From positions 422,474 to 486,473 of the forward strand of contig NZ_KQ948427.1 in assembly GCF_001514065.1 (NCBI RefSeq): a stretch of DNA of 64,000 nt, read 5' to 3'. A program made the position numbers and the translations under genes. The stretch comes from Streptomyces antibioticus (GTDB lineage Bacteria; Actinomycetota; Actinomycetes; Streptomycetales; Streptomycetaceae). Each line of letters opens with the position of its first letter. The stretch's first letter is position 1. The notes under the pieces were generated by a model that made no database searches, was not told the origin of the DNA, and saw only the letters and a list, made by a program, of their open reading frames with translations. Shown in pieces: positions 2,099 to 25,765 of the stretch.

Positions 2099-2117
2099 GT
2101 ACGTTTACATCGTAAAC
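2099..2117. promoter_or_regulatory. Shared operator copy 1 (GTACGTTTACATCGTAAAC)
   Basis: A near-palindrome with perfect inner arms GTTTAC-ATC-GTAAAC. It matches four other intergenic sites in this window. It lies in the 102-bp gap between the glycosyltransferase and the sugar transferase, right upstream of the RBS of the latter. The upstream promoter boxes are weak here (CCGACG about 27 bp upstream on the minus strand). Confidence 0.75.
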
Positions 2118-2183
2118 CCACGACGATGGCAGGTCCACAGAGAGCGTCGGCGGCTCCAAGGACGTGGGTCCGGACGCCGCGCG

Positions 2184-3275
2184 TCACACCCCCGGCCCGA
2201 GTTCGAGAGCGGCCGACCAGCGGGGCAGCCAGGCGTCGTACGAGTACTTCAGGCCGACGATGTCGCGGGCCAGCCGGCCCAGCCACTCCCGGTCGGCAGC
2301 GGACGACCCGATGAGGCCGAGAAGCGCCGAGGTCCAGTCGTCCCGAGAGCGCGGCGCCGGCATGCCGAACTGCGTCAGCAACTCGCCGTTGACGCCGACC
2401 GGGCTGGCGGCGGCGGGCAGTCCCGCGGCGGCGTACTGGAGCAGTTTGTAGCCGCACTTCCCAAGACTGTAGGAGGTCATCGGCACGGGCATCAGGCCGA
2501 CGTCCATGTCGGCCAGCGCGGCCCGCTGACTCTCCGGGCTCCACGCGACACGGTCGATGAAGGACTCCAGCCGGCCCAGGGAGGGTGCGGTCGTACCGAC
2601 GAGGGTCAGCCGCGCCCCGGTGCGCCGGTGGACCTCGGTGAGCGCGTCGGCGATCAGCAGCAGACACGACTCGTTGCCGCGGGAGCCGATCCAGCCGAGC
2701 CGGGGTGGGTCGTGCAGCAGATACGACGTCTTGGGGACGTAGTCCTCCAGGGACACGCAGCTCGGGATCACCACGACGTCGTCATGGTGGTGTGAGGCCC
2801 AGTCCGCGAGAACGGCGTTGCCCGCAACGACCCGGTCCGCGCACCGGACAGCCGTGCGCGCCTTGTCGGCCTTGGGGGCCATTCTGCGGACGAGACCGCC
2901 CTCGCCGTGGTCCCACTGCAAGGCGTCGTCGAAGTCGTAGACCGCGAACTCGGCGCTCGTCAGCAGCCGCCGCTCCCACCAGCCGCGACTGAGCGGGGAG
3001 GCTTCCCGATGCAGCAGAAGCCTGCGGGGCCGGCCGTTGGCGATGGCGGCCAGCCGCAGCTCCGCCCGGGCCAGCGAGACCGGGTGCCGGGCGAGCCGGG
3101 AGGGGGTGGCGTCCGGCAGCGACAGATAGCTGCCGACGGTGAAGTCGGCGCCGACGCGGTCCAGCCAGGCGAAGACCCGGACCCGGGAGCTCCCGGCTCC
3201 CCGGCCGTACGGCGTGACCGCACAGCGGTCGAGGCGACGATCCATGGTGTCGAGTTCCAGTCCGCGGTTCCGCAT
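2184..3275 (-). CDS. Glycosyltransferase, GT4-like
   Basis: About 363 residues. The N-terminal half carries RVRVFAWLDRVG near the start and a DFDDAL stretch; the C-terminal half has the GT-B nucleotide-sugar fold pattern with RLGWIGSRGNE, GLMPVPM and GKCGYKLLQYAAAGLPAAASP, the donor-binding region of GT4 enzymes. It probably adds one sugar to the lipid-linked repeat at the inner membrane face. The start is uncertain. ATG 3275 has a poor RBS; ATG 3245 has GGA about 10 nt upstream and would give 353 residues. A minus-strand promoter (TTGACG 3351-3356, CAGTAT 3328-3333) and the shared operator at 3296 lie just upstream, with the Wzz-like gene on the other side. Confidence 0.85.
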   Translation of the reverse strand: MRNRGLELDTMDRRLDRCAVTPYGRGAGSSRVRVFAWLDRVGADFTVGSYLSLPDATPSRLARHPVSLARAELRLAAIANGRPRRLLLHREASPLSRGWWERRLLTSAEFAVYDFDDALQWDHGEGGLVRRMAPKADKARTAVRCADRVVAGNAVLADWASHHHDDVVVIPSCVSLEDYVPKTSYLLHDPPRLGWIGSRGNESCLLLIADALTEVHRRTGARLTLVGTTAPSLGRLESFIDRVAWSPESQRAALADMDVGLMPVPMTSYSLGKCGYKLLQYAAAGLPAAASPVGVNGELLTQFGMPAPRSRDDWTSALLGLIGSSAADREWLGRLARDIVGLKYSYDAWLPRWSAALELGPGV

Positions 3276-3295
3276 CTCAACCGTATGCTGATATT

Positions 3296-3314
3296 GTACG
3301 TTTACGGCGTAAAT
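3296..3314. promoter_or_regulatory. Shared operator copy 2 (GTACGTTTACGGCGTAAAT)
   Basis: Arms TTTAC-GGC-GTAAA. It lies between the divergent glycosyltransferase (minus) and the Wzz/kinase-like gene (plus), 21 bp from the 3275 start and 77 bp from the 3391 start, so one site could control both directions. Confidence 0.78.
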
Positions 3315-3327
3315 CCGGTGAATCGCC

Positions 3328-3356
3328 ATACTGCTCCCCAAGTCTCAGGACGTCAA
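3328..3356 (-). promoter_or_regulatory. Putative promoter of the glycosyltransferase (TTGACG-N17-CAGTAT)
   Basis: On the minus strand, -35 TTGACG (3351-3356) and -10 CAGTAT (3328-3333) are 17 bp apart. The predicted start of transcription is near 3320, immediately before the operator at 3296-3314. The same TTGACK-N17-CAGKRT arrangement precedes operator copies 3 and 5. Confidence 0.5.
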
Positions 3357-3390
3357 GAGCGGCCCGAACCGCCCCGTGGGAGGAAGCCCC

Positions 3391-4773
3391 ATGGATCTCC
3401 ACGACTACATCGACACCCTGCGCCGACGGTGGCGGTTCGTCACCGTGTGCGTGCTTCTCGGACTCGCCGCCGCCGCCGCGGCGACCGCACTGATGCCCCG
3501 CACCTACACGGCCACTGCGCAGCTGTTCGTCGCCACCAGCGACGAGGACAGCGGCAACGCCTACCAGGGCGGCCTGTTCACCCAGCAGCGCGTGAAGTCG
3601 TACACCCGCATCATCACCAGCCCCGCGGTCCTGGACGGAGTCATCTCCGAACTCGGGCTCAACACCACGCCTGGGCAGCTGGCGGACAAGATGAACGCCC
3701 AGGCGCCACTCGACACGACGCTCATCGACATCCGGGTGAGCGACGGATCACCGCAGCGGGCCCAGGACATCGCCGACCAGACCGCTCTGCAGTTCACCAA
3801 GTACATCGCCGCCATCGAGGCCCCCGCTCCCGGCACCCCACCGCTGATCAAGGCCAGCGTGGTCGGCGGCTCCGAGCCCCCTTCCACCCCGACCAGCCCA
3901 CGCCCGGCCCTGAACCTGGCCATCGGACTGCTCGCCGGAGCCGTGGTGGGCGTCGCGGGCGCGGTGCTGCGCCAGTCGCTCGACACGACCGTCCGCTCGG
4001 TGGACGACCTCGGCGCGAGCCTGGGCGTCACCGTGCTGGGCGCGGTTTCCCCGCCCGGCCGCCCCGGCGCCACCGGACGGGCCGGCACGACACAGCGCGC
4101 CGAGGCACTGACCCAGCTGAGTACACGGCTGCGGTTCAGTACCGACAACGGCATACCGGCCTCGGTCCTGGTGGCCAGCGCGCTCCCCGAGGAGGGGCGC
4201 ACTCGGACCGCCGTCGACCTGGCCACGACCGTCGCCCGTACCGGCCGGCGGGTGATCCTGGTGGAGGCCGATCTGCGTCGGCCGTGTCTGGGCGCGGTTC
4301 TCGGGCTTGGCGACGGTCCCGGGCTGACCGATGTCCTCGCCCGCGACACCCCGCTCTACCAGGCTCTGCGGACCTGGGACGAGGGCGGGCTGCGGGTACT
4401 GCCCGCCGGTCCCGCTGCCGCGGATCCCAGCACGCTGCTGTCCTCGCCGGACCTGCCGCGTGTGCTGCGCGCCCTCAGCTCCGACGCCGATCTGATCGTC
4501 CTCGACAGCCCGCCCTTGCTGACGTTCGCCGACGCTGCCCTGCTCGCCCCTCTCACCGACAGTGTGCTGTTGGTGGCGCGGGCCGGCAAGACACGTTCCG
4601 GTGACGCGCAGCGTGCCCTCGACTCCCTCACTGCGGTGCGCGCACGCGTCCTGGGCGCCGTGCTCACCGGCGCCCGGGCGAAGGGGGCGGCCGACTGGCA
4701 GCCGCCCGCGGAGCCGAAGCGTCCGGCTTCCTCCCCGGTGCCCGACTGGGTGCCGACCGGACGTCATCCGTAG
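3391..4773 (+). CDS. Wzz chain-length determinant fused to a BY-kinase-like domain with a degenerate P-loop
   Basis: A 460-residue membrane protein. It has a TM helix at about 17-36, an extracytoplasmic Wzz region, a second TM at about 173-193, then a cytoplasmic CpsD/Wzc-like ATPase domain. In families of this type the domain controls polymer length and export. The Walker A region here reads LPEEGRTRT (265-273) instead of GEGKS/T-T, so the invariant lysine is arginine. Walker A' is VEADLRRP (291-298) rather than IDADLRRP, and Walker B is LIVLDSPPLL (about 368-377). No C-terminal tyrosine cluster is present. The kinase function may be lost or altered. ATG 3391 has GGGAGGAA 6 nt upstream. It is followed after 13 bp by the polymerase gene, probably as one operon. 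Confidence 0.88.
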   Translation: MDLHDYIDTLRRRWRFVTVCVLLGLAAAAAATALMPRTYTATAQLFVATSDEDSGNAYQGGLFTQQRVKSYTRIITSPAVLDGVISELGLNTTPGQLADKMNAQAPLDTTLIDIRVSDGSPQRAQDIADQTALQFTKYIAAIEAPAPGTPPLIKASVVGGSEPPSTPTSPRPALNLAIGLLAGAVVGVAGAVLRQSLDTTVRSVDDLGASLGVTVLGAVSPPGRPGATGRAGTTQRAEALTQLSTRLRFSTDNGIPASVLVASALPEEGRTRTAVDLATTVARTGRRVILVEADLRRPCLGAVLGLGDGPGLTDVLARDTPLYQALRTWDEGGLRVLPAGPAAADPSTLLSSPDLPRVLRALSSDADLIVLDSPPLLTFADAALLAPLTDSVLLVARAGKTRSGDAQRALDSLTAVRARVLGAVLTGARAKGAADWQPPAEPKRPASSPVPDWVPTGRHP

Positions 4774-4786
4774 GCGGTGAGATCCG

Positions 4787-6163
4787 GTGACACGGGCCCA
4801 GACCGACATGGCGCTGTTCCTGGGGGTGCTGGCACTGCTGTCCCTGGTCCCGTGGGTGGTCGCGCTACGCCGCGCCCACGCCCACGGGGACTGGGACCGT
4901 ACCTCTTGGCTGGTCTTGCTGACCGGTGTCCTGGCCAACCTCCCGACGTTCGCCTACGTCCTGCGCACGGGTCGGCCGCAACGGCTCGACCCCCTGGGTG
5001 AGGTGGTGATCGGATTCCCTGGCTGGGTGCTCCTGGTAGGAATCGCGGCGAACGGTCTGCTGGTGGTCGTCTGCGGGGTGTTCTTTCTGCACCGGCTCCT
5101 AGCCCGGCGTGCCCACATCAACACAGCGCCGCTCGTCGCGCTCGCGCTCGTCGTCCTGGTCGCGCTGTCCGACGGGCTGCACGGGCAACAACCGCTCGCG
5201 CCCCGGCAGATCGTCCTGGTCGCCGTCCTGCTGGCGGCGGCCGTCGCCCGGCCAGGACGCCCCGCACTGCTGGGCGGGGCAGCGGTCGTCATGGTGTGCA
5301 CGGTCCTCGGCGGGATCGAGGCGCTCGTCGAGCCGGGCTCGGTTCTGCGGGAGTGCCGGGCCGACAATCCGTGCGGTTCGCTGGGGGTGCACTACACGGG
5401 CGTCTTCACCAACGAGAACATCTTCAGCCTGCTGCTGATCGTGGGCCTGCCCTTTGTGTGGCTGGGGTTGCGCGGCCCCGTGCGCGTGGTGCTGACCTGC
5501 TACGTCGCGTTCGTGGCGGTCGCCACCGGAAGTCAGTTGGCCGGGGCCACGGCGGTCCTGGCCGTGATCTTCCTCGCGGTGCTGCGCCCTCGGCTCCCGG
5601 ACGAACCGGGTCCACCCCGGTCGCAGTCGCTGTCGAGCCGGATCCTGTTCGGTGTGCCGGTCCTGGGCGCGGTGGCCGCCGTGGGTCTTGCCCTGCCGTT
5701 CGTACGGCCGGAGGCCGACCGGCTCGGCGACCGCGCGACCGTCTGGGAGATAGCCGTGCAGGATCTGCGCGAGTCGCCCTTCATGGGCTTCGGCGCCAAG
5801 GCATGGTCGGCCAAGTACCAGGCCGGCGAGATCCCCGCCGCGCTCTCGCCCTCGCCGCACAACCAGTGGATGGACGTTCTCTATGCGGGCGGCCTGGCCG
5901 GTCTGGTCCTCTTCCTGCTTCTGCTGGTCCACCTGCTGATGCAGGGCGGGGTCCGCGGCTTCCCGGCCGCCGCGAGCGTGCTGCTGCCCGTCCTGCTCGC
6001 CTCGCTCCTGGAACGTCCCTGGTCGTTCGGCATCAGCAACTCGCTCACGTTCACCCTGCTCACCGCCGTTCTCCTGCCCGTGGTGCCCGCCCGCCGCCCG
6101 CACACCCAGTCGCCCGGCTCCTCGATGACCGCAACGAACGTCTCCTCGCGGATGCCGCCCTGA
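4787..6163 (+). CDS. O-antigen ligase/Wzy-type polymerase
   Basis: About 458 residues with roughly ten hydrophobic segments and one large central loop (HYTGVFTNENIFS), followed by a segment with GDRATVWEIA, the shape of Wzy_C/O-antigen ligase proteins. This family joins lipid-linked repeat units outside the membrane. GTG start at 4787 with GGTGAG upstream, 13 bp after the Wzz-like gene. It converges on the flippase at 6196 with only 32 bp between them. The best matches to the family pattern are NENIFS and the HNQWMDVLYAGGLAG stretch near residue 360. Its substrate is unknown. Confidence 0.85.
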   Translation: MTRAQTDMALFLGVLALLSLVPWVVALRRAHAHGDWDRTSWLVLLTGVLANLPTFAYVLRTGRPQRLDPLGEVVIGFPGWVLLVGIAANGLLVVVCGVFFLHRLLARRAHINTAPLVALALVVLVALSDGLHGQQPLAPRQIVLVAVLLAAAVARPGRPALLGGAAVVMVCTVLGGIEALVEPGSVLRECRADNPCGSLGVHYTGVFTNENIFSLLLIVGLPFVWLGLRGPVRVVLTCYVAFVAVATGSQLAGATAVLAVIFLAVLRPRLPDEPGPPRSQSLSSRILFGVPVLGAVAAVGLALPFVRPEADRLGDRATVWEIAVQDLRESPFMGFGAKAWSAKYQAGEIPAALSPSPHNQWMDVLYAGGLAGLVLFLLLLVHLLMQGGVRGFPAAASVLLPVLLASLLERPWSFGISNSLTFTLLTAVLLPVVPARRPHTQSPGSSMTATNVSSRMPP

Positions 6164-6195
6164 CCGTCAGGCACAGCCACCCGGCGCGTCGGGGT

Positions 6196-7734
6196 TCATG
6201 CGGCGTCCTCCTCTTCCGCGGGATGCGGGGCTCGGAGTTCCGGCCGGAGCAGGGCCGCGGCGATCACGAGACCGGCGAGGACGGGAAGCCCGGCCAGCAG
6301 CAGCGGCAGCACCCCGTGCAGACCGAGGCGCAGCACCAGCAGATCGCCGAGCAGGGCCACGGCCGTGGCCGCCGCGGTCGCGCCCGGCCAGCGACGCGGC
6401 AGACGCTGCTCCCGCAGCCCGGCCAGCCGTCGGCACAGCACGACGAAGTACGCGGAGCCGGCCATGATGCCCAACGCGGTCGAGAGCACCACTCCGACCA
6501 CACCGAACAGCAGCGTCAGCGGGACGGTGAGGGCGAGGTTCACCGCCGTCGAGAACCACGAATAGCGCGTCTCGTGTCCCGGCCTGCCGATCGCCCGCAC
6601 GAAGCAGGTCCGGATACCGGTCAGGGCCACCTGTACCGAGTAGCCGGCCAGCAGCACCGCGGCGACCGCTCCGCTGAGGGCGAGGGCCGGGCCGAGCCAG
6701 ACCTGCACCGCGAGACCGACGGCCGCCGTCGTCACCACGCCGTAGGTGAGGACGCAGGGCAGCCAGCGAGCCTGCAGCACGGGAAACTCCCGTGCCGCGC
6801 CCGGAAGTCCGTGCCGGGTGTAGATGTGGGTCATGCGGGTCAGTATCGGCGGGAAGGCGTACAGCGGCAGGCTGCGCAGGGCCGTGGCGGCCTGATAGCC
6901 GGCCGCGTAGATGCCGACGTAGCGCACGGGCAGCAGTGCGGCGATCACCAGGGCGTCGATCTCGCCGTTGAGGAAGACCGTGAAGCCGGACATCTGCATA
7001 CGTGCGGCATAGCCTCCGAACTCACGGCGTTCGGCGCGCGATGGCAGCAATGGCCGCTGGATCCGCAGGTGTTGTGCCCCAATGGCCAGCCCGCCGACCG
7101 TCACCAGCAGATAGCGGCCGGCCGCCAGTACGGCGAGCAGCGGCAGATCCGGCCCGTGGTCGATCAGTACGGTCACCGCGACGGCGTAGGCCAGGCAGGA
7201 GCCCCCGGTGACCGCGGCCAGGCCACGGAAGCGGGCGTTCGCCTGGAGCAGGGCCACCGCTGAGTTGGAGGCCAGCGCCAGGGTCAGCAAGGGGCCCAGG
7301 GCCAGCAGGAGCTGTCGCGCCTCCTCCCGCAGCCGGACCGGTACGTCGAGGGCGGTGACGAGCGCCGGGGTGAGGGCCAGGCACAGACAGGTGACCACGG
7401 CCCCCAGTCCGACGAAGGCCACGAGTGATCCGATCACGAGCCGTCCCGCCCCTTCCTGGTCGCCCCGGGCGGCGTGGTGGGCGTGGAAGCGGGCCAGCGA
7501 GGCTCCGATGCCCCCGTCCAGCACGGTGAGCGTGGCCAGCAGGACCAGGATCAGGGACCAGACACCGAACCGGTCGAGGCCCAGATGGCGGATGAGGTAG
7601 GGAGTGAGGACCAGGTTGGTGAGCAGGGGTGCTCCCTGGGCCAGCGCGCTGAAGCCGACCGCCGGAAGCAGGTGCCGCGAGGGCGTGTCGGTCCCGTGCT
7701 CCGTCAGGTGTGTGGAGTGGTTCCGGGACCACAT
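6196..7734 (-). CDS. Wzx-type polysaccharide flippase (MATE/MVF superfamily)
   Basis: A 512-residue protein that is almost entirely hydrophobic, with about 12-14 predicted TM helices. It has an N-terminal GFSALAQGAPLLTNLVLTPYLIRHLG typical of polysaccharide export transporters (positions about 27-52), then GVWSLILVL. The family moves the lipid-linked repeat unit to the outer face of the membrane. ATG start at 7734; the stop of the LCP gene is 7 bp upstream, so it is the last gene of a three-gene operon driven from the promoter at 11565-11593. Confidence 0.85.
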   Translation of the reverse strand: MWSRNHSTHLTEHGTDTPSRHLLPAVGFSALAQGAPLLTNLVLTPYLIRHLGLDRFGVWSLILVLLATLTVLDGGIGASLARFHAHHAARGDQEGAGRLVIGSLVAFVGLGAVVTCLCLALTPALVTALDVPVRLREEARQLLLALGPLLTLALASNSAVALLQANARFRGLAAVTGGSCLAYAVAVTVLIDHGPDLPLLAVLAAGRYLLVTVGGLAIGAQHLRIQRPLLPSRAERREFGGYAARMQMSGFTVFLNGEIDALVIAALLPVRYVGIYAAGYQAATALRSLPLYAFPPILTRMTHIYTRHGLPGAAREFPVLQARWLPCVLTYGVVTTAAVGLAVQVWLGPALALSGAVAAVLLAGYSVQVALTGIRTCFVRAIGRPGHETRYSWFSTAVNLALTVPLTLLFGVVGVVLSTALGIMAGSAYFVVLCRRLAGLREQRLPRRWPGATAAATAVALLGDLLVLRLGLHGVLPLLLAGLPVLAGLVIAAALLRPELRAPHPAEEEDAA

Positions 7735-7741
7735 GGCGGCC

Positions 7742-8776
7742 TCACTGTCCGCCGGGCGGATGTCCCGTCTCGACCGCCCGCCACTGCGCCCGCAGCTTCT
7801 CCTTGTCCAGGATCAGCGTGTACTGCCCGTCGATCATCTGGGGCCGCACGATGGGTGCGGTGGTGAACGTCGCGTCCGAGGCGTCCAGGTGGCGCAGACC
7901 GAGCACGAGGTTGCGCAGGTCGCCGTTGGACATCCGGTCGTCGACGCTCACCGCACGGGTGATGGCGTCGAGCATGCGGCTGGTGCCCAGCGGGTCGGTG
8001 ATGCTGACCTCGTCGCGCATCTCGCCGACGAGGCTTTGCAGGAACTGCTGCTGCCGCTCGATGCGGTCCAGTTCGCCGCCGGGCAAGCCGTGCCGCTGGC
8101 GGACGTACGCCAGCGCCTCGTCGCCGTGCATGGTCTGGGTGCCCGCGCTGAAGTGCTGGTCCTGTTCCGGGTCGTAGGCATCCGCCGGGACGGTGACCCG
8201 CACGCCGCCGACAGCGTCCGTCAACGCCTTGAAGCCGTGCCAGTCGACGACGCCGAAGTGGTCGATGCGGGTGCCGGTCAGCTGCTCGACGGTACGGATG
8301 AGCAGCGGGGGGCCGCCCCAGGAGAACGCGGCGTTGACCTTCGCGGAGCCGTGGCCCGGGATGGGCACCCAGCTGTCCCGGGGGATCGACATCGTGTAGG
8401 TGTTCTGTTCGTCGGCGCCGAGGTGGACCAGCATGAGGGTGTCGCTGCGCTGGGCGCCGTACCGCCACAGCCGGCCCGTGGCGTCGCTGCCGGTGGTGGG
8501 CTGCTTGGATCGGCTGTCGACGCCGGCCAGAAGGAAGGTCGTACCGCCGTCGTGGGAGGGCGGTTTGGGCGGGCGCGGCTCTGTGGGGAAGGCGTCGGGG
8601 ATGCGGGTGACCTGGTCGCCGTAGTGGTTGGTGCCCCACCAGATCCCGCCGGCGACGACGCCCAGCAGAGCCAGGGCGCCGGCCAGGAGGCACACCACGA
8701 CAAGCCGCAGGAGACGGCGCCGCGAACGGGTGCGTGCCCGGGGTGCCCAGGTCGGCCAGTGGTTTTGTGCGGACAT
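7742..8776 (-). CDS. LytR-CpsA-Psr (LCP) family glycopolymer ligase
   Basis: 344 residues: a basic N-terminus, one TM helix (about 21-46), a proline-rich linker and an extracytoplasmic LCP domain. Landmarks are RSDTLMLVHL, the SIPRDSWV block, KVNAAFSWGGP, and near the end YVRQRHGLPGGELDRIERQQQFL with the conserved arginines (about 225-247). LCP enzymes move glycopolymers from undecaprenyl carriers to peptidoglycan, so the product of this cluster is probably wall-anchored. The ATG overlaps the stop of the aminotransferase/dehydratase fusion (TGATG), so translation is coupled. Confidence 0.92.
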   Translation of the reverse strand: MSAQNHWPTWAPRARTRSRRRLLRLVVVCLLAGALALLGVVAGGIWWGTNHYGDQVTRIPDAFPTEPRPPKPPSHDGGTTFLLAGVDSRSKQPTTGSDATGRLWRYGAQRSDTLMLVHLGADEQNTYTMSIPRDSWVPIPGHGSAKVNAAFSWGGPPLLIRTVEQLTGTRIDHFGVVDWHGFKALTDAVGGVRVTVPADAYDPEQDQHFSAGTQTMHGDEALAYVRQRHGLPGGELDRIERQQQFLQSLVGEMRDEVSITDPLGTSRMLDAITRAVSVDDRMSNGDLRNLVLGLRHLDASDATFTTAPIVRPQMIDGQYTLILDKEKLRAQWRAVETGHPPGGQ

Positions 8777-11478
8777 CAGAAGTCGTCCGGGTACGGGGCG
8801 GCCATGACCGGGGGCTCGGGGGGCCGGGGCACTGTCGAGGGGAACCCGGGGAGGAGTTCGGCGAGCACGCGGCGCACTTCGCCGGTGTCATTGCGCTCGG
8901 CGGCCGCGTACAGCTCGGGCAGGTGTTCGGTGAGGGCGGCGTCGTCGTCCGGGCGGCCGGTGGGGGTCGCCGCGAGGATGCGCGGATGGGCGGTGGGGGT
9001 GTGGTCCTCGCGCACGGAGAACAGGGTCTCGTTGAGTTTCTCGCCCGGCCTGAGACCGGTGAAGCGGATGTCGACGTCCGGCACGTTCAGTGAGCCGGCG
9101 AACTTGCGGACGAGGTCCACGATCCGCACCGGGTCGCTCATGTCCAGGACGAACACCTCACCACCCCGGGCCATCCGCATGGCCTCCAGAACCAGACCCA
9201 CCGCTTCCTCCACGGTCATGAAGAAGCGGGTCACGTCGGGATGGGTGACGGTCACCGGGGATCCGGCTCCCAGTTGTTCGGCCACCACCGACAGCAGCGA
9301 TCCCCGGCTGCCGAGCACATTGCCGAACCGGACGGCGGAGAAGACGGTGCCGGGCGCGGCACTGTTCTGGGCGCGGCGGACGACGAGTTCGGCCAGCCGC
9401 TTCGTGGCACCGAGCATCGAGACCGGGTCGGCAGCCTTGTCGGTGGAGATCAGCACGAACCGCTCGGTGTCGGCCGAGCCGGCGGCCCGCACCAGGTTCT
9501 CGGTCCCCCGGACATTCGTCTTCACGCCTTCGCAGGGGTGGCGTTCGAGAAGCGGGAGGTGTTTGTGCGCGGCGGCGTGTACGACCACTTCGGGCCGCAG
9601 TTCGTGGAAGACCTGGTCGATGCGGGGACGGTCCCGGATGTCCGAGATGACGATGTCGTCACTGCGCAGGGCGTCGCCGTACAGCTCCAGCTGGAGCCGG
9701 TGCAGGTTCGACTCGTCGTGGTCCAGGAGGAACAGGCGGCTCGGGCCGAAGGCCCTGATCTGATGGCAGAGTTCGCTGCCGATCGAGCCGCCCGCGCCGG
9801 TCACCAGCACCCGGCGTCCCGCGACGGTCGAGCGTGTCTCGGGTCCCGCCACATGCAGTTCGGCCCGCCCGATCAGCTCGTGCACGTCCAGGGCCCGCAT
9901 GTCGCTGCCGACGACGTCACGGCGGAGCGCCGCGATGAACGACGGCAGGTAGCGCACGCTCGCGCCCGTCGCCTCGGCTGCCCTCGCCACCCGGCGGAAG
10001 CGGTCCGGGCTCAGCCCGGGGATGGCGACGACCACGGCCTCGATCCGATGAGCGAGGGAGACCTCCCGGGTCTCGTCCAGCTTCCCCAGCACGGGCAGTT
10101 CGGCGATGACCGCGGACCGGTGCTTGACCGGATCGTCGTCCACGAAGCCGACGGGTTCGAGCCCGAACTGCGGCGTCCGCGCGAGATCCCGGGCGAGCGC
10201 CCGCCCCGCCTCGCCGGCCCCGACCACGAGGGTGCGCAGTCCTCCCGGCCGGCGCGCGACGGTGGGCCCCGCCAGCTTCTCGCAGACCTGGTCGACCGCG
10301 GTCTCGGTCAGCCCGGGATACAGCGGCAGCGACAGCAGCTCCGGGAACAGGGCGTCCGCGCCCGGCAGCCCTCCGGGCGGGTTGACGGCCGTGGCCCGGA
10401 AGAGGGGCATCCGGTGCAGCGGAGTGAAGTGGACCGACGTGCCGATGCCGTGCTCGGCCAGGCGGGCGATCAGCTCGTCGCGGGAGGTGCCGTACTCCGC
10501 CAGGACCCGCACGACATACAGGTGCCGGGCGTGTCTGCCCGGGGTGGTGGATTCCAGCCGCCGGAGTCCGGGGACTGCCTTCAGGGCGTCGTCGTAGCGC
10601 TCCGCCAGCTCCTCCCGGCGGCGCTGCCACTCGTCGACATACCGCAGTTGGGCCCGGCCGATGGCGGCCTGGAGGTCGGTCATGTTGGCCTTGAGGCCGG
10701 GCTCGTCGACGGTGTAGTGCCAGGTGCCGCCCGGGAGGTTGCGCCGCCAGGCGTCCACGGACATGCCGTGCAGCCGGGCGCGGCGGAGCCACTCGGCGAG
10801 CTGGGTGTCGTTCGTGGTGACCATGCCGCCCTCGCCAATGGGCAGGTTCTTGGTCGCGTAGAAGCTGAAGCAGGTCGCCCGCGAGAGGCCGCCCACGGGC
10901 CTGTCCCCGACGGTCGCGCCCAGAGCGTGGGCGGCGTCCTCGACGACGTACTCCAGGGGCAGCCGTGCCGCTTCCGCCAGTTCGGCGACGGGGGCCGGGG
11001 CTCCGGCGTAGTGCAGGGCCATCAGCGCGTGGGGGCAGCCGCACGCCCTGGCCGCGCGGGCGACGGTCTGCGGGGTGGGCATCGCGGTCGTGGGGTCCAC
11101 ATCGACCAGGACGGGGCGCAGGCCCGCGTGCAGGACCGCCTCCGCCGCACCGCAGAACGTGACGTCCGGGACCAGGACCGCTCCGCCGGGCGGCAGGCGC
11201 AGGGCGCGCAGGGAGAGTTCGAGGGCTGCCGTGCAGGAACTCACGGCGACCGCGTGCCGCGCCCCGACATGGGCGGCGAACTCGGTCTCGAAGAGCTGCG
11301 TCTCGGGGCCTGTGGTCACCCAGCCGGAGTCGAGCACGCGCCGTGCGGCGCGGCGGGCCTCGGGGCTGATCCAGGTCGCGGCGAACGGCACACCCGCGTC
11401 AGACGGAACGTGGGCCGCGGGTTCGCGGGCGGTGCGGGGCGCCTGCTCCTGTCGGGGCCGCAGCCGGTGGACTGTCAT
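8776..11478 (-). CDS. Fused PLP aminotransferase (DegT/DnrJ/EryC1) and UDP-GlcNAc 4,6-dehydratase (CapD/PglF-like)
   Basis: 900 residues. Residues about 30-405 form a sugar aminotransferase; the PLP lysine is Lys210 in FYATKNLPIGEGG and VEDAAHALGA precedes it. Residues about 408-540 form a CoA-binding-like Rossmann sensor (LVVGAGEAGRAL), as in membrane PglF/CapD, but the PglF membrane helices are missing. From about 545 the dehydratase core follows, with VLVTGAGGSIGSE, VVHAAAHKHLP, the catalytic STDKAADPVSMLGATKR and LRPGEKLNETLF. Together the two halves would convert UDP-GlcNAc to a UDP-4-amino-4,6-dideoxy sugar, as separate PglF and PglE do. ATG 11478 has GGGGAG upstream; a TTG 18 codons earlier lacks support. 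It is the first gene of the minus operon. Confidence 0.9.
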   Translation of the reverse strand: MTVHRLRPRQEQAPRTAREPAAHVPSDAGVPFAATWISPEARRAARRVLDSGWVTTGPETQLFETEFAAHVGARHAVAVSSCTAALELSLRALRLPPGGAVLVPDVTFCGAAEAVLHAGLRPVLVDVDPTTAMPTPQTVARAARACGCPHALMALHYAGAPAPVAELAEAARLPLEYVVEDAAHALGATVGDRPVGGLSRATCFSFYATKNLPIGEGGMVTTNDTQLAEWLRRARLHGMSVDAWRRNLPGGTWHYTVDEPGLKANMTDLQAAIGRAQLRYVDEWQRRREELAERYDDALKAVPGLRRLESTTPGRHARHLYVVRVLAEYGTSRDELIARLAEHGIGTSVHFTPLHRMPLFRATAVNPPGGLPGADALFPELLSLPLYPGLTETAVDQVCEKLAGPTVARRPGGLRTLVVGAGEAGRALARDLARTPQFGLEPVGFVDDDPVKHRSAVIAELPVLGKLDETREVSLAHRIEAVVVAIPGLSPDRFRRVARAAEATGASVRYLPSFIAALRRDVVGSDMRALDVHELIGRAELHVAGPETRSTVAGRRVLVTGAGGSIGSELCHQIRAFGPSRLFLLDHDESNLHRLQLELYGDALRSDDIVISDIRDRPRIDQVFHELRPEVVVHAAAHKHLPLLERHPCEGVKTNVRGTENLVRAAGSADTERFVLISTDKAADPVSMLGATKRLAELVVRRAQNSAAPGTVFSAVRFGNVLGSRGSLLSVVAEQLGAGSPVTVTHPDVTRFFMTVEEAVGLVLEAMRMARGGEVFVLDMSDPVRIVDLVRKFAGSLNVPDVDIRFTGLRPGEKLNETLFSVREDHTPTAHPRILAATPTGRPDDDAALTEHLPELYAAAERNDTGEVRRVLAELLPGFPSTVPRPPEPPVMAAPYPDDF

Positions 11479-11541
11479 CTCTCGCTCCCCGATGTCGGTG
11501 CTCCTGGGGGCATGACGACGCCTGAAATGCAATCGAAAGGC

Positions 11542-11560
11542 GTATATTTACGTCGTATAC
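11542..11560. promoter_or_regulatory. Shared operator copy 3 (GTATATTTACGTCGTATAC)
   Basis: It lies between the divergent fusion gene and the TetR gene. The symmetry extends outward to a 23-bp dyad, GTAnnTnTACG-T-CGTAnAnnTAC, at 11542-11564. It overlaps the predicted transcription start of the minus-strand operon, the classic position for a repressor, and would also allow autoregulation of the TetR gene. Confidence 0.8.
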
Positions 11561-11564
11561 GTAC

Positions 11565-11593
11565 ACCCTGCCCCCGGAGGCGCATAGAGTCAA
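11565..11593 (-). promoter_or_regulatory. Putative promoter of the fusion-LCP-flippase operon (TTGACT-N17-CAGGGT)
   Basis: Minus strand: TTGACT at 11588-11593 and CAGGGT at 11565-11570, 17 bp apart. The distance from TTGACT to the operator (27 bp) is identical at operator copy 5. On the plus strand TAGAGT at 11585-11590 may be a -10 box for the TetR gene. Confidence 0.5.
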
Positions 11594-11627
11594 CAGAAGC
11601 AGGCCGTCGACCGTCTGGAGGCACAGC

Positions 11628-12356
11628 ATGGCCAAGGGCACCCAGGGCAGGGATCCCGGCGAGGCCCCCGCGCGTCGCGCCAGCGACCGTGGCCGTTACG
11701 GCCGTCTCAGCCGTGAGCGCGTGCTCACCAGCGCCCTGGAACTCGTCGACCGTGACGGCCTCTCCGCGCTCAGCATGCGGCGCCTGGGCGCCGAACTCGG
11801 GGTGGAGGCGATGGCTCTCTACCGGTACGCGGCGAGCAAGGACGCCCTGCTGGACGGTCTCGTCGAGGCACTGCATCTGGAGCTGGAGGAACGGCTGACC
11901 GCGGATGCGGTCGCGGCCCGCGAGTGGCGGGCCGAGCTCGGTCGGGTGGCCCGGGCGACGTACGACGTCTGCCTGGCCCACCCCCAGGTCGTGCCGCTGC
12001 TGTCGACCCGCATGCTGGCCGTCCCCCTCGCGCGGCGGCCACTGGCCACCCTGCGGCACCACGAGCGGGTCCTCTCCCTGTTGCAGGAAGCCGCCGGGCT
12101 CGACGCCCAGCGTGCGGCAGCCGTGTTCCGCGCCTTCACCGCCTGGGTGTTGGGCTACGTCTCCGTCGAACTCCAGGCCATGGTCGACAACCCCGACGAG
12201 CCCGACCCCGCTTTCCGGCTCGGCCTGCACCACATGCCGCCCCAGGAGCTGCCCCGGCTGCGCGCGGCCGCTCCCGCCCTCGCCGAACGGGGCGGGCCGG
12301 AGGGGCTGGTGGCGGGACTGGACGCGCTGCTCGACCGTTTCAGCGGGGAGGCGTGA
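11628..12356 (+). CDS. TetR-family regulator, candidate repressor of the polysaccharide regulon
   Basis: 242 residues. The N-terminal HTH (about 25-70) reads RERVLTSALELVDRDGLSALSMRRLGAELGVEAMALYRYAASKDALLDGL, split here by its helices at 24-42 and 45-70; the remainder is a TetR_C-like ligand and dimer domain. ATG 11628 follows TGGAGG by 6 nt. It is transcribed away from the fusion operon, and the shared 19-bp element sits between them, 68 bp upstream of this start. TetR genes are often next to their own operator, so it is the best candidate binder of all five sites; this is inference. The ligand is unknown. Confidence 0.9.
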   Translation: MAKGTQGRDPGEAPARRASDRGRYGRLSRERVLTSALELVDRDGLSALSMRRLGAELGVEAMALYRYAASKDALLDGLVEALHLELEERLTADAVAAREWRAELGRVARATYDVCLAHPQVVPLLSTRMLAVPLARRPLATLRHHERVLSLLQEAAGLDAQRAAAVFRAFTAWVLGYVSVELQAMVDNPDEPDPAFRLGLHHMPPQELPRLRAAAPALAERGGPEGLVAGLDALLDRFSGEA

Positions 12357-12521
12357 ATCTCCGATTCACCCCAGAGATGGGCCGGTTGGGGCGACCGGTG
12401 TGAAAGGCGGGGCGGGTACGCCGTACAACCGTTCGGCGGCCAGGGACGTCTGATCTTCGGGAACACGTTCCCCGAGGTTCACCCACCCGTCACCACCCCC
12501 CACCGCCGCGAAGGACCCTTC

Positions 12522-13811: not shown

Positions 13812-13825
13812 CCGCCGCAGTCGTC

Positions 13826-13860
13826 GAGAGGGAGCCTGGCCCGACACAGGGCTCCCTCTC
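13826..13860. terminator. Bidirectional terminator hairpin
   Basis: Perfect 11-bp arms GAGAGGGAGCC (13826-13836) and GGCTCCCTCTC (13850-13860) with a 13-nt loop, between the converging LAxTG gene and EamA gene. The right arm directly abuts the EamA stop codon. Confidence 0.75.
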
Positions 13861-20001: not shown

Positions 20002-20701
20002 ATGGACGCCCCGCCCCTGCGCTGGGGCGTCCTGGGCACCGGCTGGATCGCCGAGCCCTTCGTCGCCTCCGTCCAGCGGCACACCCGGCAGCGCTTCACG
20101 GCCGTCGCCTCCCGCGCCGCCGGCCGCGCCAAGGCCTTCGCCGAACGGCACGGCATCCCGGCCGGCTAAGGGTCGTACGAGGAGCTGGTCGCGGCCTCGG
20201 ACGTCGACGTGGTGTGCGTCGCCACGGAGCACACCGCCCACCTCGCTTGCGCCCGCCTCGCCCTGGAAGCGGGCAAGCACACTCGTGGAGAAGCCGCTTG
20301 CGCTCGACGCGTCCGAGGCGGCGCGGATCGCCGAACTGGCCTCGGCGCGCGGCCTGTTCTGCGCGGAGGCCCTCTGGACTCTCTACCTGCCGAAATTCGA
20401 CGTCGTCCGGCAGTTTCTCGAGTCCGGCGTCCTCGGCGACATCCACACGGTCCTGGCCGAGCCCGGCGATCTGGCGCTGACCCCGTCCGGTGGCGGTACG
20501 ACGCTGGCGTACACGGAACCCCGGACCGCCCATGAGGGCCTGCAGTTCGAGGCCGCCGAGGTCGCCCAGTGCGTCAGCGACGGGCAACTCCAGACGCCGC
20601 TGCGCCCGTTGGCCGACTCCTTGACCATGCTCCAGGCGAAGGACGAGCTCCGCCGGACGGCCGGCATCCGCCGTCCGACCGCTGGGGAAGCAGCGCGATG
20701 A
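20002..20701 (+). pseudogene. Second decayed Gfo/Idh/MocA oxidoreductase
   Basis: The frame starts at ATG 20002 with RWGVLGTGWIAEPFV. It is broken by TAA at 20167-20169 (GIPAG-stop-GSYEEL). The same frame resumes to LALEAGKHT, and a +1 shift near 20280 then puts VEKPLALDASEAARI in another frame (from 20285). After VLGDIHTVLAEPGDLA it jumps to TPSGGGTTLAYTEPR, an apparent further internal deletion. The nonsense codon, frameshift and deletion together show a dead gene. It follows another dead relative, so this stretch is decaying. Confidence 0.87.
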
Positions 20702-20754
20702 GCCATGTCACAGACTCCTCGACGGCGATCGGGACAAGTTACGGAGTAGGTTGA

Positions 20755-20768: not shown

Positions 20769-20803
20769 AACTAAGGTGCACAACCCCAGCCTGGGAGGAC
20801 GCC

Positions 20804-21718: not shown

Positions 21719-21825
21719 ACATCGCGGGGTACGGCCCGACACCAGGCGGGTGTACACGCGGGCGCGGCACGATCCGACACGGTACCGACGCCGGTCGCGA
21801 CCCCTTCTCGCCCTGAGATGATATC

Positions 21826-21844
21826 GTATATTTACGATGTAAAC
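21826..21844. promoter_or_regulatory. Shared operator copy 4 (GTATATTTACGATGTAAAC)
   Basis: 48 bp upstream of the oxygenase start. Core ATTTAC-GAT-GTAAAC. It is the first element of polysaccharide part B and the only one whose flanking promoter boxes are unclear (TATCGT at 21823-21828 overlaps it). Confidence 0.78.
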
Positions 21845-21891
21845 AGGAATACGTCTTCACCTGTACCCCTCGACACCAAGGGTGACGAGCA

Positions 21892-22704
21892 ATGTTTGAG
21901 ACATACCGCTTCTCGAACGATCAACTGTTCCCGCTCGCCGACCGGTCTCGCGACCGCTTCCGCAGCGCGGAACCCTTCCCCCATGTCGTCATCGACGACT
22001 TCCTGCCCGAGTGGGTCCTGGACCAGGTCGTGGCGGAGTTCCCCGGACCCGGCGATGCCCCCTGGAAGCAGTTCGACAAGTCCACCTCGAAGAAGCTGGC
22101 CAGCGAAGGGGATGCGCTCTTCGGTGAGTTCAGCCGTCATCTGCTGGCGGAGTTCAACGGTGCGACCTTCCTCGGCTTCCTGGAGCGGCTGACCGGAATC
22201 GACGGTCTCGTACCGGACCCGTACTTCGAGGGCGGGGGCCTGCACCAGATCGAGCGGGGCGGCTTCCTCAAGGTGCACGCCGACTTCAACTGGCAGCCCA
22301 AACTGCGCCTCGACCGACGGCTGAACGTCCTCGTCTACCTGAACCGGAACTGGCAGGAGTCGTACGGGGGTGCTCTGGAACTGTGGGATCGGGAGATGAC
22401 CCACGCGGTTACGGAAGTCTTTCCCGTCTTCAATCGCTTCGTCGTCTTCGCCACGACGGACTTCGCCTACCACGGCCATCCCGAGCCGCTGACCTGCCCG
22501 CCCGATCTGACTCGGCGGTCGCTCGCCCTCTACTACTACAGCAACGGCCGCCCGGCGGAGGAACGCAGCCCCGAGCACAGCACTCTCTACCAGCAGCGCC
22601 CGGGCGAGCGTCAGGGGCGCGCACGCAGGACGGTCGAGCGCGTGACCCCGCCCGTCCTGTTGGACGCCGCACGGAACGCACGGCGTCGGGTGCGGGCCCA
22701 CTAG
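21892..22704 (+). CDS. 2-oxoglutarate/Fe(II)-dependent oxygenase-like protein
   Basis: 270 residues. The double-stranded beta-helix pattern is clear: the Fe ligands fit His129 and Asp131 (VHADF), and the distal His is His194 (YHGHPEPL); RRSLALYYYSNG has the arginine expected to bind 2-oxoglutarate. Such enzymes hydroxylate or epimerise small molecules, sugars or proteins. As the first gene of an operon with a GT2 and a methyltransferase, it probably modifies the glycan or its lipid-linked precursor; the substrate is unknown. ATG 21892, with a weak AGG-like RBS. Confidence 0.85.
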   Translation: MFETYRFSNDQLFPLADRSRDRFRSAEPFPHVVIDDFLPEWVLDQVVAEFPGPGDAPWKQFDKSTSKKLASEGDALFGEFSRHLLAEFNGATFLGFLERLTGIDGLVPDPYFEGGGLHQIERGGFLKVHADFNWQPKLRLDRRLNVLVYLNRNWQESYGGALELWDREMTHAVTEVFPVFNRFVVFATTDFAYHGHPEPLTCPPDLTRRSLALYYYSNGRPAEERSPEHSTLYQQRPGERQGRARRTVERVTPPVLLDAARNARRRVRAH

Positions 22705-22759
22705 CCGCCCCGTCGAACAGGTGCGCCGGAGATCCAGACGACTCCGAGGAGGCGCGGCC

Positions 22760-23812
22760 GTGGTGAAGCAGATACCGGCGAGGAACAGGACGAGCCCTGC
22801 TCCCACGCCATCCGCCGGGGCAACGGAGGCACTGCCCGGCCTCGACATCGTGGTGGTCAACTGGAACACGGGCGAATTTCTGCGGAACTGCCTGCTCTCC
22901 ATCGCGGCCTCCCGGCACACAGCCTTCACGCTGGACTCGGTCATCGTGGTGGACAACTCCTCCAGCGACGGATCCGCAGACCGAACCGACGACGTGCCAC
23001 TGCCACAACTGCACGTCATTCACAATGCCGAGAATCTCGGATTCGCGACCGCTTGCAACCAGGGTGCCAAAGAGGGAACCGCACCCTTCGTGCTGTTCCT
23101 CAACCCGGACACGACGTTGTTTCCGGAGACACTCGATCGGGTGCTCAGTTTCCTTGCGCTTCCCGAGGCGGCACGCGTGGGTATCTGTGGCGGGCAGATG
23201 ATCGGCGACGACGGGAAACTTCAGGCATCATGTGCCCGGTTTCCCCGACTGCCGATGTTCCTGGCAAAGGCGACCGGTGCCGCCCGGCTGCTCCCGTCGC
23301 TCACGCCAAGTCAATGGATTTCGGTCGACGAGATCAAGGAAAGCCAACCGGTGGACCATGTGATCGGCGCCTTTTTCCTTATGCGGCGGCCGTTGTTCGA
23401 AGATCTCGGAGGCTTCGACGAGCGCTTCTTCCTCTACTACGAGGAGATCGAGCTCGCCTACCGGGCCAGAATAGCCGGGTTTCTCAGCTATTTCCTCGCG
23501 GATGCCCCTGTGATCCACAAGGGCAATGTGAGCTCATCACAGATAATCGGCCCCCGCATCTTCTATGTTCTGCACGGCAGGACGGAATTTGCCCGACTGT
23601 ACTGGCCGCGGCGGCAGACGCTGACCCTGACAGCGATGACCCTTCTCATTGAATTCCCCAGCCGACTCGCACTCGCACTGGCAAGGAGAAGGGGACATGA
23701 AGTCCGCGCTGTCGCAGTGGCGTTCCGGCTGTACACAAAATATGTGGCCGCCGTGATACAGCAGAACCACAGCCATCGGCCGAAAAGGTCGAGGAGGCGG
23801 CATGTGCACTAA
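22760..23812 (+). CDS. Family 2 glycosyltransferase (rhamnosyltransferase-like)
   Basis: 350 residues of the GT-A type: VVVNWNTGEFLRNCLLSI near the N-terminus, VVDNSSSDGSAD, then FLNPDTTLF with the DxD-like motif, and GAFFLMRR/FDERFFLYYEEIELAYRARIAG, typical of rhamnosyltransferase-like GT2 proteins. A basic tail follows. GTG 22760 has GAGGAGG upstream (GTG 22763 also fits); 55 bp after the oxygenase. The end overlaps the methyltransferase by 11 bp, so translation is coupled. Confidence 0.88.
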   Translation: MVKQIPARNRTSPAPTPSAGATEALPGLDIVVVNWNTGEFLRNCLLSIAASRHTAFTLDSVIVVDNSSSDGSADRTDDVPLPQLHVIHNAENLGFATACNQGAKEGTAPFVLFLNPDTTLFPETLDRVLSFLALPEAARVGICGGQMIGDDGKLQASCARFPRLPMFLAKATGAARLLPSLTPSQWISVDEIKESQPVDHVIGAFFLMRRPLFEDLGGFDERFFLYYEEIELAYRARIAGFLSYFLADAPVIHKGNVSSSQIIGPRIFYVLHGRTEFARLYWPRRQTLTLTAMTLLIEFPSRLALALARRRGHEVRAVAVAFRLYTKYVAAVIQQNHSHRPKRSRRRHVH

Positions 23813-24512
23813 TGGATGCATCGAATTCGCGCGAACTCACCTGAGCCGGACAGATGTTTCCGGCAAGCCGGTACTGGAAGTCGGTTCGTGCGACGTCAAT
23901 GGAACCATCAGGCGGTTGGTGGAATCACTGGGCCCAGCCAAATACGTCGGCGTCGACATCGTCTCGGGCCCCGGCGTCGACCTGATCTGCCCGGCAGAGA
24001 AGCTCGTCGAGCGATTCGGCAACGAGTCATTCGACGTCGTCGTGACCACCGAAATGCTTGAACATGTCCGCGACTGGCGCACCGTCATTCATAACCTCAA
24101 AAATGTGCTGCGCCCCGGAGGAATCCTACTCATCACCACCAGATCGCGCGGATTCCATTTCCACGGCTATCCCGCAGACTTCTGGAGATACGAAGTATCT
24201 GATATTTCTCGGATACTCGCGGATATGACACTGGAGTCCGTCGAGTCCGATTCCAGCGACTCACCAGGCGTGTTCGTCAGGGCTCGGCGTCCCGAGAATT
24301 TCACGGAGCAGGCAACCGCCGACATTCGCCTGTATTCGGCCGTACGGCATCGCAGAACTCATTCCGCAACGCTGCCCGACGTGATCGTGAGCAGGGGTCT
24401 GAGCCGGGCGAAGTCCGCTGCGTGCCGGTGGCTTCCCCTCTCGCTGCAACGCGGTGCCCGACGGGGGTTCGACTCGCTGGCCTCGGGCTTCGGAGTCAGG
24501 CCTGGCCGCTAG
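23802..24512 (+). CDS. Class I SAM-dependent methyltransferase
   Basis: 236 residues. VLEVGSCDVNG (motif I, about 24-34), YVGVDIVSGPGVDLI, FDVVVTTEMLEHV (about 77-89) and LRPGGILLITT give a clear Rossmann methyltransferase fold. It probably O-methylates a sugar of the glycan. It overlaps the GT2 stop at its start and the convergent GT4 gene (24496) at its end by 17 bp. Confidence 0.85.
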   Translation: MCTNGCIEFARTHLSRTDVSGKPVLEVGSCDVNGTIRRLVESLGPAKYVGVDIVSGPGVDLICPAEKLVERFGNESFDVVVTTEMLEHVRDWRTVIHNLKNVLRPGGILLITTRSRGFHFHGYPADFWRYEVSDISRILADMTLESVESDSSDSPGVFVRARRPENFTEQATADIRLYSAVRHRRTHSATLPDVIVSRGLSRAKSAACRWLPLSLQRGARRGFDSLASGFGVRPGR

Positions 24513-25692
24513 CAGCTCGTGCCGGAATCCGCCCCTTGCCTTCCGACAACCCGTCCAGCAGTTGCCCCAGGGGTTGCAGGGTGCGGTTCCAGTCCAACCG
24601 CCGCGCCTGTTCATACGCCTCGTCACTGATCGCCCGCCACTTCCTCTCATCACTCAGCGCCTCGATCACGGAGACGAAATCGTCCTCGGTATAGGGAACC
24701 GACCCTTGCAGAAGGTCGAGGTTGCGCCGCCAACCGGGGACCAGGGTAGGGAGACCGTACGCCAGGTAGTGCAGATGCTTGGCCGAGAATCCTTCCTCAC
24801 GGATGGGGTCCCGGGTGCAGGTGATCAACCCGAACTGGTAGTCGCGCAGGACCTCGGCGGATGCGTAGCCCCGGTAGTCGAGTCCCAAGGACGGGTCAGG
24901 GGGCGGTCCGCCATATACGTCGATATACGGATACATCCGGGAAAGCCGTGACAGCAGGGGAAGGTTGATGAAATGCCCGGCGAGCGAGCCGAGGTAGGCC
25001 ACGCGCGGCGGACCGGAGAAGCGTGCCCGGTCGGGCGAAGGTGTGCATCCCCAGTTCAGCTGAAGGAAGTTGTTCCCGCTGATCCCGTACCGTGCCTGTG
25101 CGTACCGGCCGTACGTCTCCCAGGAGAACGACAGGTGCTCCATGCTTTCGAGGAAGCCCTTCTCCCAGTTTTGGAACTTCCGATGCTGCCGGGCGGTGAG
25201 CCGGCCCTCGTTGAGCACTTCGTCGGCCCAGGGGTTGGGACAGTCGTAGAGGGTCTTCGCGGAAGTGGCCGTCGTCAGCACTCCCGCGTCATAGGGGGTC
25301 TCACAGATGACGAGGTCGTAGTCATCCAGCGCGAGATCACGACTGAGGATGTGGCGGCGCAGACGGTGGTCTGTCAGCAGCACGTGATGAGAGAGGTGAC
25401 GGCGCCCGAATCCCCACCGGCGGGTGAGCAGTTTGGAGGCGACGTCGTTCACATAGAGCATCAACTTCAGGGGATGCGGGGATCCCGGGAGCATTCGCCC
25501 GAGGGAGCCCGCCGTCCTGGACGCCCGTGCCAGGCAGTAGGTGTCCACCATGTGTACGTCACGACCGTGTTCCCGCAGATACCGCTCAATGGCCAGGGGC
25601 TTGACGCTGTTGGCGTACCCATCGAGCTGAGCCACGATCAGGATGCGCTGGGGCTGGCCGTTGTCGCGCCCCGGCGAGGTCGTCGCGGTCAT
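24496..25692 (-). CDS. Glycosyltransferase, GT-B type
   Basis: 398 residues. N-terminal RILIVAQLDGYANSVK is a GT-B start, followed by a LYDCPNPWADE segment. The C-terminal half has PRVAYLGSLAG, YPYIDVYGG and AKHLHYLAYGLPTLVPGW, the donor-binding region of GT4-like transferases. Probably adds a sugar to the repeat unit. ATG 25692 follows GGAAGGAGG by 6 nt, an excellent RBS. It has its own promoter (TTGACT 25793-25798, CAGTGT 25770-25775) with the shared operator at 25747, and converges on the methyltransferase. Confidence 0.85.
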   Translation of the reverse strand: MTATTSPGRDNGQPQRILIVAQLDGYANSVKPLAIERYLREHGRDVHMVDTYCLARASRTAGSLGRMLPGSPHPLKLMLYVNDVASKLLTRRWGFGRRHLSHHVLLTDHRLRRHILSRDLALDDYDLVICETPYDAGVLTTATSAKTLYDCPNPWADEVLNEGRLTARQHRKFQNWEKGFLESMEHLSFSWETYGRYAQARYGISGNNFLQLNWGCTPSPDRARFSGPPRVAYLGSLAGHFINLPLLSRLSRMYPYIDVYGGPPPDPSLGLDYRGYASAEVLRDYQFGLITCTRDPIREEGFSAKHLHYLAYGLPTLVPGWRRNLDLLQGSVPYTEDDFVSVIEALSDERKWRAISDEAYEQARRLDWNRTLQPLGQLLDGLSEGKGRIPARAASGQA

Positions 25693-25746
25693 GGTGCCTC
25701 CTTCCCAGGGCGGGCATGCAGAGGTGGGCCGAGATCTCCAAGGCCA

Positions 25747-25765
25747 TATATTTACGACGTATACT
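25747..25765. promoter_or_regulatory. Shared operator copy 5 (ATATATTTACGACGTATAC)
   Basis: Overlaps the predicted transcription start of the minus-strand glycosyltransferase, as at copy 3. The distance to TTGACT (27 bp) is the same. It also lies 218 bp upstream of the beta-helix gene on the plus strand. Confidence 0.78.

Follow-up and report, generated by a model that had tools for sequence, protein, structure and literature searches.

The control of surface polysaccharides in Streptomyces seems to be little studied, and the one dedicated repressor that we met in print is Ste1 of Streptomyces sp. 139, a protein of the GntR/DasR family. According to the accessible parts of its description, Ste1 acts as a repressor at two promoter regions of the Ebosin exopolysaccharide cluster (PMC8902715). 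Here we analysed a stretch of 64,000 bp from Streptomyces antibioticus (the window), in which AT-rich palindromes lie upstream of polysaccharide genes and beside the gene of a TetR-family regulator. This arrangement resembles that of Ste1 and its cluster, but the regulator belongs to another family (PMC8902715).

Within the TetR family, the operators of SCO7222 from Streptomyces coelicolor are the nearest published ones that we found, as far as the accessible text of the report goes (PMC3511530). These operators, TGGAACGNCGTTCCA, are of the same length as the 15-bp core of the element described here and have the same ACGNCGT centre, and SCO7222 represses a divergently oriented enzyme gene, as is proposed for the regulator of the window (PMC3511530). 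This likeness is drawn from the operators and not from the protein sequences, and there are also clear differences: the outer half-site is TGGAACG in the case of SCO7222 but GTTTACG here, three operators are found in one intergenic region whereas here there is one at each of seven promoters, and the target is a monooxygenase and not a glycan locus. The SimR/simX pair, also from Streptomyces, shares the divergent orientation of regulator and target, the intergenic operators and the repression, again judged from the available parts of the source (PMC5812520). However, SimR represses a single efflux pump gene, whereas the TetR protein of the window seems to act at numerous promoters within a polysaccharide locus. 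SGR6912 of S. griseus, which is divergent from a glycosyl hydrolase gene, was considered as a known member of this system and rejected, since its putative operator, as given in the accessible text, is unrelated. The kind of system, a TetR repressor with its operator, is known; what is unusual is that it seems to extend to numerous promoters of a single surface-glycan locus. In line with the original prediction, no published description of the operator or the circuit was found, although the subscription literature lay largely outside the search and absence from print is therefore unproven.

We propose that seven copies of the palindrome are the operators of the TetR-family regulator encoded at positions 11628 to 12356, which would repress surface-polysaccharide genes by blocking their transcription start sites and would also regulate its own gene. 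The probability of this reading, which is built on sequence comparisons, is put at roughly 0.87. The sites and the regulator are as follows (window positions, unless C6 is given):

C6:413133, left site, 9.3 kb before the first base of the window, upstream of galE
C6:421717, left site, 0.76 kb before the window, between a GT4-type gene and a methyltransferase gene
2099..2121, operator 1, 23-mer that differs from the palindrome at two positions, with the priming sugar-phosphate transferase gene 18 bp downstream
3296..3318, operator 2, no mismatch to the 19-mer and four to the 23-mer, between a glycosyltransferase gene (minus strand) and the gene of a Wzz/tyrosine-autokinase-like protein (plus strand)
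11542..11564, operator 3, perfect 23-mer, between an aminotransferase-dehydratase fusion gene (minus strand) and tetR (plus strand)
21826..21848, operator 4, no mismatch to the 19-mer and three to the 23-mer, upstream of a 2OG-Fe(II) oxygenase gene
25746..25768, operator 5, no mismatch to the 19-mer and two to the 23-mer, between a GT-B-like gene (minus strand) and a beta-helix gene (plus strand)
11628..12356, plus strand, TetR-family regulator of 242 amino acids (aa), the proposed repressor at all sites, whose orthologues lie beside such sites

The original prediction had named five copies of a 19-mer, RTAYRTTTACRNYGTAWAY. All five are real: a scan of the window found the 19-mer without any mismatch at positions 2099, 3296, 11542, 21826 and 25746, the last being one base to the left of the predicted 25747, and no further copy with up to four mismatches except the reverse readings of the same five sites. 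Five is however not the total. With up to two mismatches, the 19-mer has 14 matches in the whole genome (8 forward and 6 reverse), compared to one match of the reversed pattern, and 12 of these matches fall on seven places within C6:413133-448241, which corresponds to 35 kb of the 10.1-Mb genome. The site set therefore consists of seven members and reaches 9.3 kb to the left of the window, up to galE. The remaining two matches are both readings of a single weak place on C7, and all matches with at most one mismatch are confined to the 35-kb stretch, so that equally good copies scattered over the genome, which the prediction had named as evidence against a regulon, were not found. The sites are AT-rich as had been described (the seven 23-mers have a GC content of 26-52%, the window of 70.9%). 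In contrast, the claim of a common orientation is empty, because the element is palindromic and the promoters that it overlaps face both ways. The proposed distance of about 20-80 bp to a start codon is confirmed by the values from the 19-mer to the called starts (18-76 bp), with the exception of the beta-helix gene, whose called start is 323 bp away and for which a longer open reading frame (ORF) with a TTG start would reduce the distance to about 190 bp; the gene calls were made with our own script, and the start codons may therefore be inexact.

In its full length, the element is a palindrome of 23 bp, GTAYRTWTACRNYGTAWAYRTAC, drawn from the own sites together with those of a first scan of 61 genomes of the genus. 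In the seven own sites, 6 to 9 of the 11 pairs of the arms are symmetric. A 15-mer scan with two mismatches was too loose and was discarded (44 places, 14 for the control). With at most one mismatch the 15-mer occurs at eight places, namely the seven sites and C7:600139, which is located about 100 bp upstream of a gene for a protein of 593 aa; it was left out of the set and is possibly a further regulon member.

The product of the gene at 11628-12356 contains both a TetR_N helix-turn-helix (PF00440, 35.9 bits with a cut-off of 24) and a TetR-type C-terminal domain (PF02909, 34.3 bits with a cut-off of 21). Its profile matches solved chains of the TetR family, and the second-best solved sequence is SimReg2 (2y2z, E 1.6e-14), which we take to be SimR. 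None of the NCBIfam subfamily cut-offs (TetR, MftR2, KstR and others) is reached; six models match below their cut-offs, the best with 55.9 bits versus 265. A palindromic operator between the regulator gene and its divergent target is present in the form of operator 3.

Site and regulator occur together across the genus. The 23-mer (up to two mismatches) was found in 63 of 392 genomes, the own genome included, and the reversed pattern in only one, at a single place in G304; 57 of these 63 genomes belong to the 331 that played no part in deriving the pattern. Orthologues of TetR (E up to 1e-45) are present in 71 of the 392 genomes. Both are found in 59 genomes, only the site in four, only TetR in 12 and neither of them in 317 (Fisher p=9e-53, with no correction for the relatedness of the genomes). 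Conversely, when 78 loci were fetched by similarity to TetR, a site lay near the TetR gene (-400 to +60) in 55 loci with up to three mismatches and in 60 with up to four, and the reversed pattern never did so with fewer than five mismatches. These results favour TetR as the regulator of the operator set, as had been suggested. The first scan of the genus, with the 19-mer and at most one mismatch, had given 8 of 61 genomes compared to 2 of 61 for the reversed pattern, and at the family level, with the same number of mismatches, the site occurs in 6 of 150 genomes, i.e. in 6 of 38 of the own genus and in none of 112 genomes across 16 other genera.

Some of the genomes with a site but without an intact TetR orthologue still hold related sequences close by. 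In G224, TetR is divided between two matches at a distance of about 0.2 kb from the site; G197 has a TetR remnant with an internal stop about 0.6 kb away from its site, and G272 a TetR homologue with 38% identity at 1.3 kb. The locus of G197 (L167, position 5201) has kept a perfect operator beside the TetR remnant, with no galE called next to it, and is perhaps a decaying copy of the system. The G272 site is the perfect palindrome GTACATGTACGCCGTACATGTAC among different genes (L170, position 1501); it probably belongs to a separate related system, maybe a sister regulon. A variant palindrome, GTACGTCTACGYKTTAAACATAC, is located upstream of diverged TetR orthologues (63-69%) in L114, L121, L162 and L163, and regulator and operator may thus co-evolve. 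Weak matches to the 19-mer in G056 and G017 were lost under the 23-mer; one of those in G056 (L041, position 10325) is not obviously a chance match, since the start called for a TetR homologue with 35% identity is 69 bp away, and perhaps represents a related regulator-operator pair.

The genes adjacent to the sites in the compared loci belong predominantly to glycan families, which agrees with the assumption of polysaccharide genes as targets. A gene start lies within 400 bp of 118 out of 127 sites (some of them redundant), and one site lies within a gene. The 88 deduplicated direct targets include the overlapping families Glyco_tranf_2_3 (29), Glycos_transf_2 (21), Epimerase (20), Polysacc_synt_2 (19), DegT (12), GH15 (6) and Bac_transf (6). 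For 68 control genes, one per locus and located beyond TetR, these glycan families are absent among the 25 listed of 97 families, and as the tail of that list has one member per family, each glycan family could hide at most one. Genes of the galE type head sites in several small loci, and in G095 on a contig without TetR. The divergent partner of TetR is not constant: in a quick tree of TetR with 81 rows and many open forks, 59 labelled rows with 18 labels require at least 26 partner changes, 17 of which are forced by the labels alone. The labels rmlA, rmlB, epimerase and UGDH of the relatives were assigned by eye, as were several family names in the small loci and tree rows. On this evidence, it is the TetR-operator switch that appears to stay while the neighbouring glycan genes vary. 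A dedicated circuit, as originally predicted, is in keeping with the data, but its assignment to one glycan was an extrapolation, since the same operator heads other glycan genes in other species.

The position of the operator relative to the promoter is a further line of evidence. An alignment of 60 unique sites at TetR promoters revealed a second conserved block, which on the opposite strand reads TTGACt-N17-nAnnnT and corresponds to an ordinary promoter of the housekeeping type, the operator following immediately after its -10 box. Of the 119 unique sites, 87 have TTGAC at -30 to -28 on one side or on both, where the background of the loci would predict about 0.3, and other offsets occur 0-2 times each, except for six occurrences at -27. 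All 56 flanks with TTGAC at exactly -29 have A at position 2 and T at position 6 of the -10 hexamer, which is partly due to shared ancestry. Among the 78 loci, the TTGAC box is directed towards 63 of the 97 neighbours other than TetR and towards none of the 55 TetR genes. After deduplication it is found at 61 of 88 targets belonging to 20 of 26 gene families and is therefore not one inherited promoter. In the own genome, the common geometry is present at both left sites and at operators 3 and 5, where the promoters (scored by a procedure of our own) are:

11565..11593, minus strand, TTGACT-N17-CAGGGT, predicted to be the promoter of the fusion gene and adjoining operator 3 on its upstream side, with the same geometry in relatives
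25769..25797, minus strand, TTGACT-N17-CAGTGT, predicted to be a promoter and adjoining operator 5 on its upstream side

The operator covers the expected transcription start, which fits a blockage by a bound dimer. We infer from these patterns that a TetR dimer would occupy the 23-bp palindrome and, at most target promoters, would block initiation directly downstream of the housekeeping-type -10 box. By means of operator 3, which separates tetR from the fusion gene, the repressor would control its own gene as well. A ligand, plausibly an intermediate of the pathway or an envelope signal, would free TetR from the DNA, and the genes for galE, priming, polymerisation, flipping and tailoring, including the probably late-acquired genes described below as part B, would be switched on together.

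Several observations weigh against this reading. No site with up to four mismatches is found at TetR in 18 of the 78 TetR loci; in nine of them a site is present at another position of the locus, six have none and three are from Nocardia or Mycobacterium. In the 12 genomes with TetR but no site, re-reading of 14 TetR places gave a site with three mismatches at seven and none at the other seven. The two sites of G099 (on a 17.6-kb contig) are without any close TetR in the assembly, the best match having 36% identity. Operators 2 and 4 are four and three mismatches away from the 23-mer and therefore escape the scan of the 392 genomes, which captures five of the seven sites of the own genome. With respect to the promoters, 32 of the 119 unique sites have no TTGAC at -30 to -28. 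At operators 1 and 2 the promoters are shifted and do not follow the common geometry: operator 1 overlaps a promoter-like TGGACC-N17-TACGAT with the -10 box inside the site, and operator 2 has TTGACG-N17-CAGTAT on the minus strand with the -35 box at -38 and the -10 box at -15. A convincing -35 box was not seen at operator 4. Finally, TetR's own promoter was not recognised, and it is consequently the operator position alone that points to autoregulation.

The sites might instead bind another regulator of the same genomes, with TetR being a passenger of the polysaccharide locus. Since TetR is encoded inside the locus, its co-occurrence with the site could be due to hitchhiking, and the 12 genomes that possess TetR without a site would be in accordance with this; moreover, a GntR-like gene, named by eye, is located beside galE sites in four of 30 small loci (L126, L131, L143 and L141, the last with no galE called). 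However, TetR orthologues adjoin the site even though the divergent partner differs, pieces of TetR adjoin the sites in G224 and G197, and no other regulator was noticed among the commonest families, most of which were named by eye only. We regard the passenger explanation as improbable. That TetR acts at the sites as an activator and not as a repressor seems very improbable: certain TetR-family proteins do activate, according to the accessible part of the SCO7222 report (PMC3511530), but an operator that extends from the end of the -10 box across the expected start suits blockage and not recruitment. Least probable of all, the 23-mer might not be an operator but serve an alternative sigma factor as a promoter element, or belong to a repeat element. 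The AT-richness of the sites and their location upstream of genes would suit this, but the 23-mer has a two-fold symmetry and at most sites lies outside an ordinary -35/-10 pair, and the spacers of the own promoters differ among themselves, for which reason the sites are not recent repeat copies.

With repression by TetR as the preferred reading, the genes around the operators can be considered. Those to the left of and surrounding tetR (part A) are:

1407..2081, minus strand, priming sugar-phosphate transferase (Bac_transf)
2184..3275, minus strand, glycosyltransferase (Glyco_trans_1_4, 31 bits, cut-off 27)
3391..4773, plus strand, protein with a Wzz domain (PF02706) and a tyrosine-autokinase-like domain (TIGR01007, 109.6 bits versus a cut-off of 108.05)
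4787..6163, plus strand, Wzy-like polymerase/ligase (Wzy_C)
6196..7734, minus strand, Wzx-like flippase (Polysacc_synt)
7742..8698, minus strand, LytR-CpsA-Psr protein (Pfam)
8776..11478, minus strand, fusion of a DegT aminotransferase and a Polysacc_synt_2 dehydratase, 900 aa (Pfam)

The priming transferase, Wzx, Wzy, the Wzz/autokinase protein and glycosyltransferases, each above its Pfam cut-off, mark this as a locus of the Wzx/Wzy type. To the left of the window, galE (TIGR01179, 398.6 bits, cut-off 262.3) and a gene for a GH15 protein were found. The best NCBIfam matches of the two halves of the fusion protein, the DegT aminotransferase and the 4,6-dehydratase-like part, are PseC and PseB, respectively, both under the cut-off.

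Part B is separated from part A and comprises five genes:

21892..22704, plus strand, 2OG-Fe(II) oxygenase (Pfam); relatives with 87% and 91% identity, truncated where the loci L067 and L062 end
22721..23812, plus strand, GT2 glycosyltransferase (Pfam); relatives with only 46-47%, in three loci
23802..24512, plus strand, methyltransferase (Pfam); no relative in the loci searched
24496..25692, minus strand, GT-B-like protein; relatives in ten TetR loci or regions, the best nine with 59-81%
25959..27074, plus strand, beta-helix protein (Pfam match under the cut-off); relatives with 75-76% in G009 and L055

The GT-B-like protein has no Pfam or NCBIfam family at E 0.001, and its label was taken over from the original prediction. 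The proposed tie between the two parts is supported for three of the five genes (GT-B-like, beta-helix and oxygenase), which have close relatives in TetR loci; in G009, relatives of the GT-B-like and beta-helix genes even lie inside the cluster. For the GT2 and methyltransferase genes, no close relative was found in the loci searched. The genes of part B have a GC content of 0.60-0.66 and of 0.71-0.86 at third codon positions (GC3), compared to 0.69-0.75 and 0.88-0.98 for the other measured genes of the window. Here, the gene families 83 and 89 are separated by a few oxidoreductase or epimerase genes, by remnants and, after these, by part B. In L045 the two families are adjacent, with no such stretch between them. 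Part B (window 21892-27074) is therefore probably a later insert of low GC content that carries its operator with it and was probably acquired horizontally, although a deletion in L045 may account for the difference as well. At positions 20002-20701 two short ORFs (55 and 138 aa) are found where L044 has a gene for 349 aa; they are perhaps the remnants of a broken oxidoreductase gene.

One might go further and regard the TetR-operator pair as a portable regulatory address for surface glycans of Streptomyces, an idea that we offer tentatively and consider possible rather than probable. The repressor and the phased unit of operator and promoter would stay, the glycan genes would be exchanged, and new genes like those of the low-GC part B would join by means of the same unit; the ligand would then be a signal common to different glycans, e.g. 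a shared precursor state, and not one end product. If it is true that the address stays while the glycan genes change, this would be a clear case of modular rewiring. The analysis provides a candidate repressor together with its proposed operator of 23 bp and a set of genes that are likely to be direct targets, and the 23-mer can be used as a DNA marker for locating such glycan loci in Streptomyces genomes.

Two gene families of the compared loci deserve mention. A GH15 gene (trehalase/glucoamylase-like; L010, positions 11209-13053, and relatives) occurs in 18 loci or regions and is the neighbour of nine sites. A protein of 1059 aa with the domains PAS, GGDEF and EAL is encoded in L058 (positions 11050-14229); its family is present in 12 loci or regions and indicates a possible link to cyclic di-GMP (c-di-GMP).

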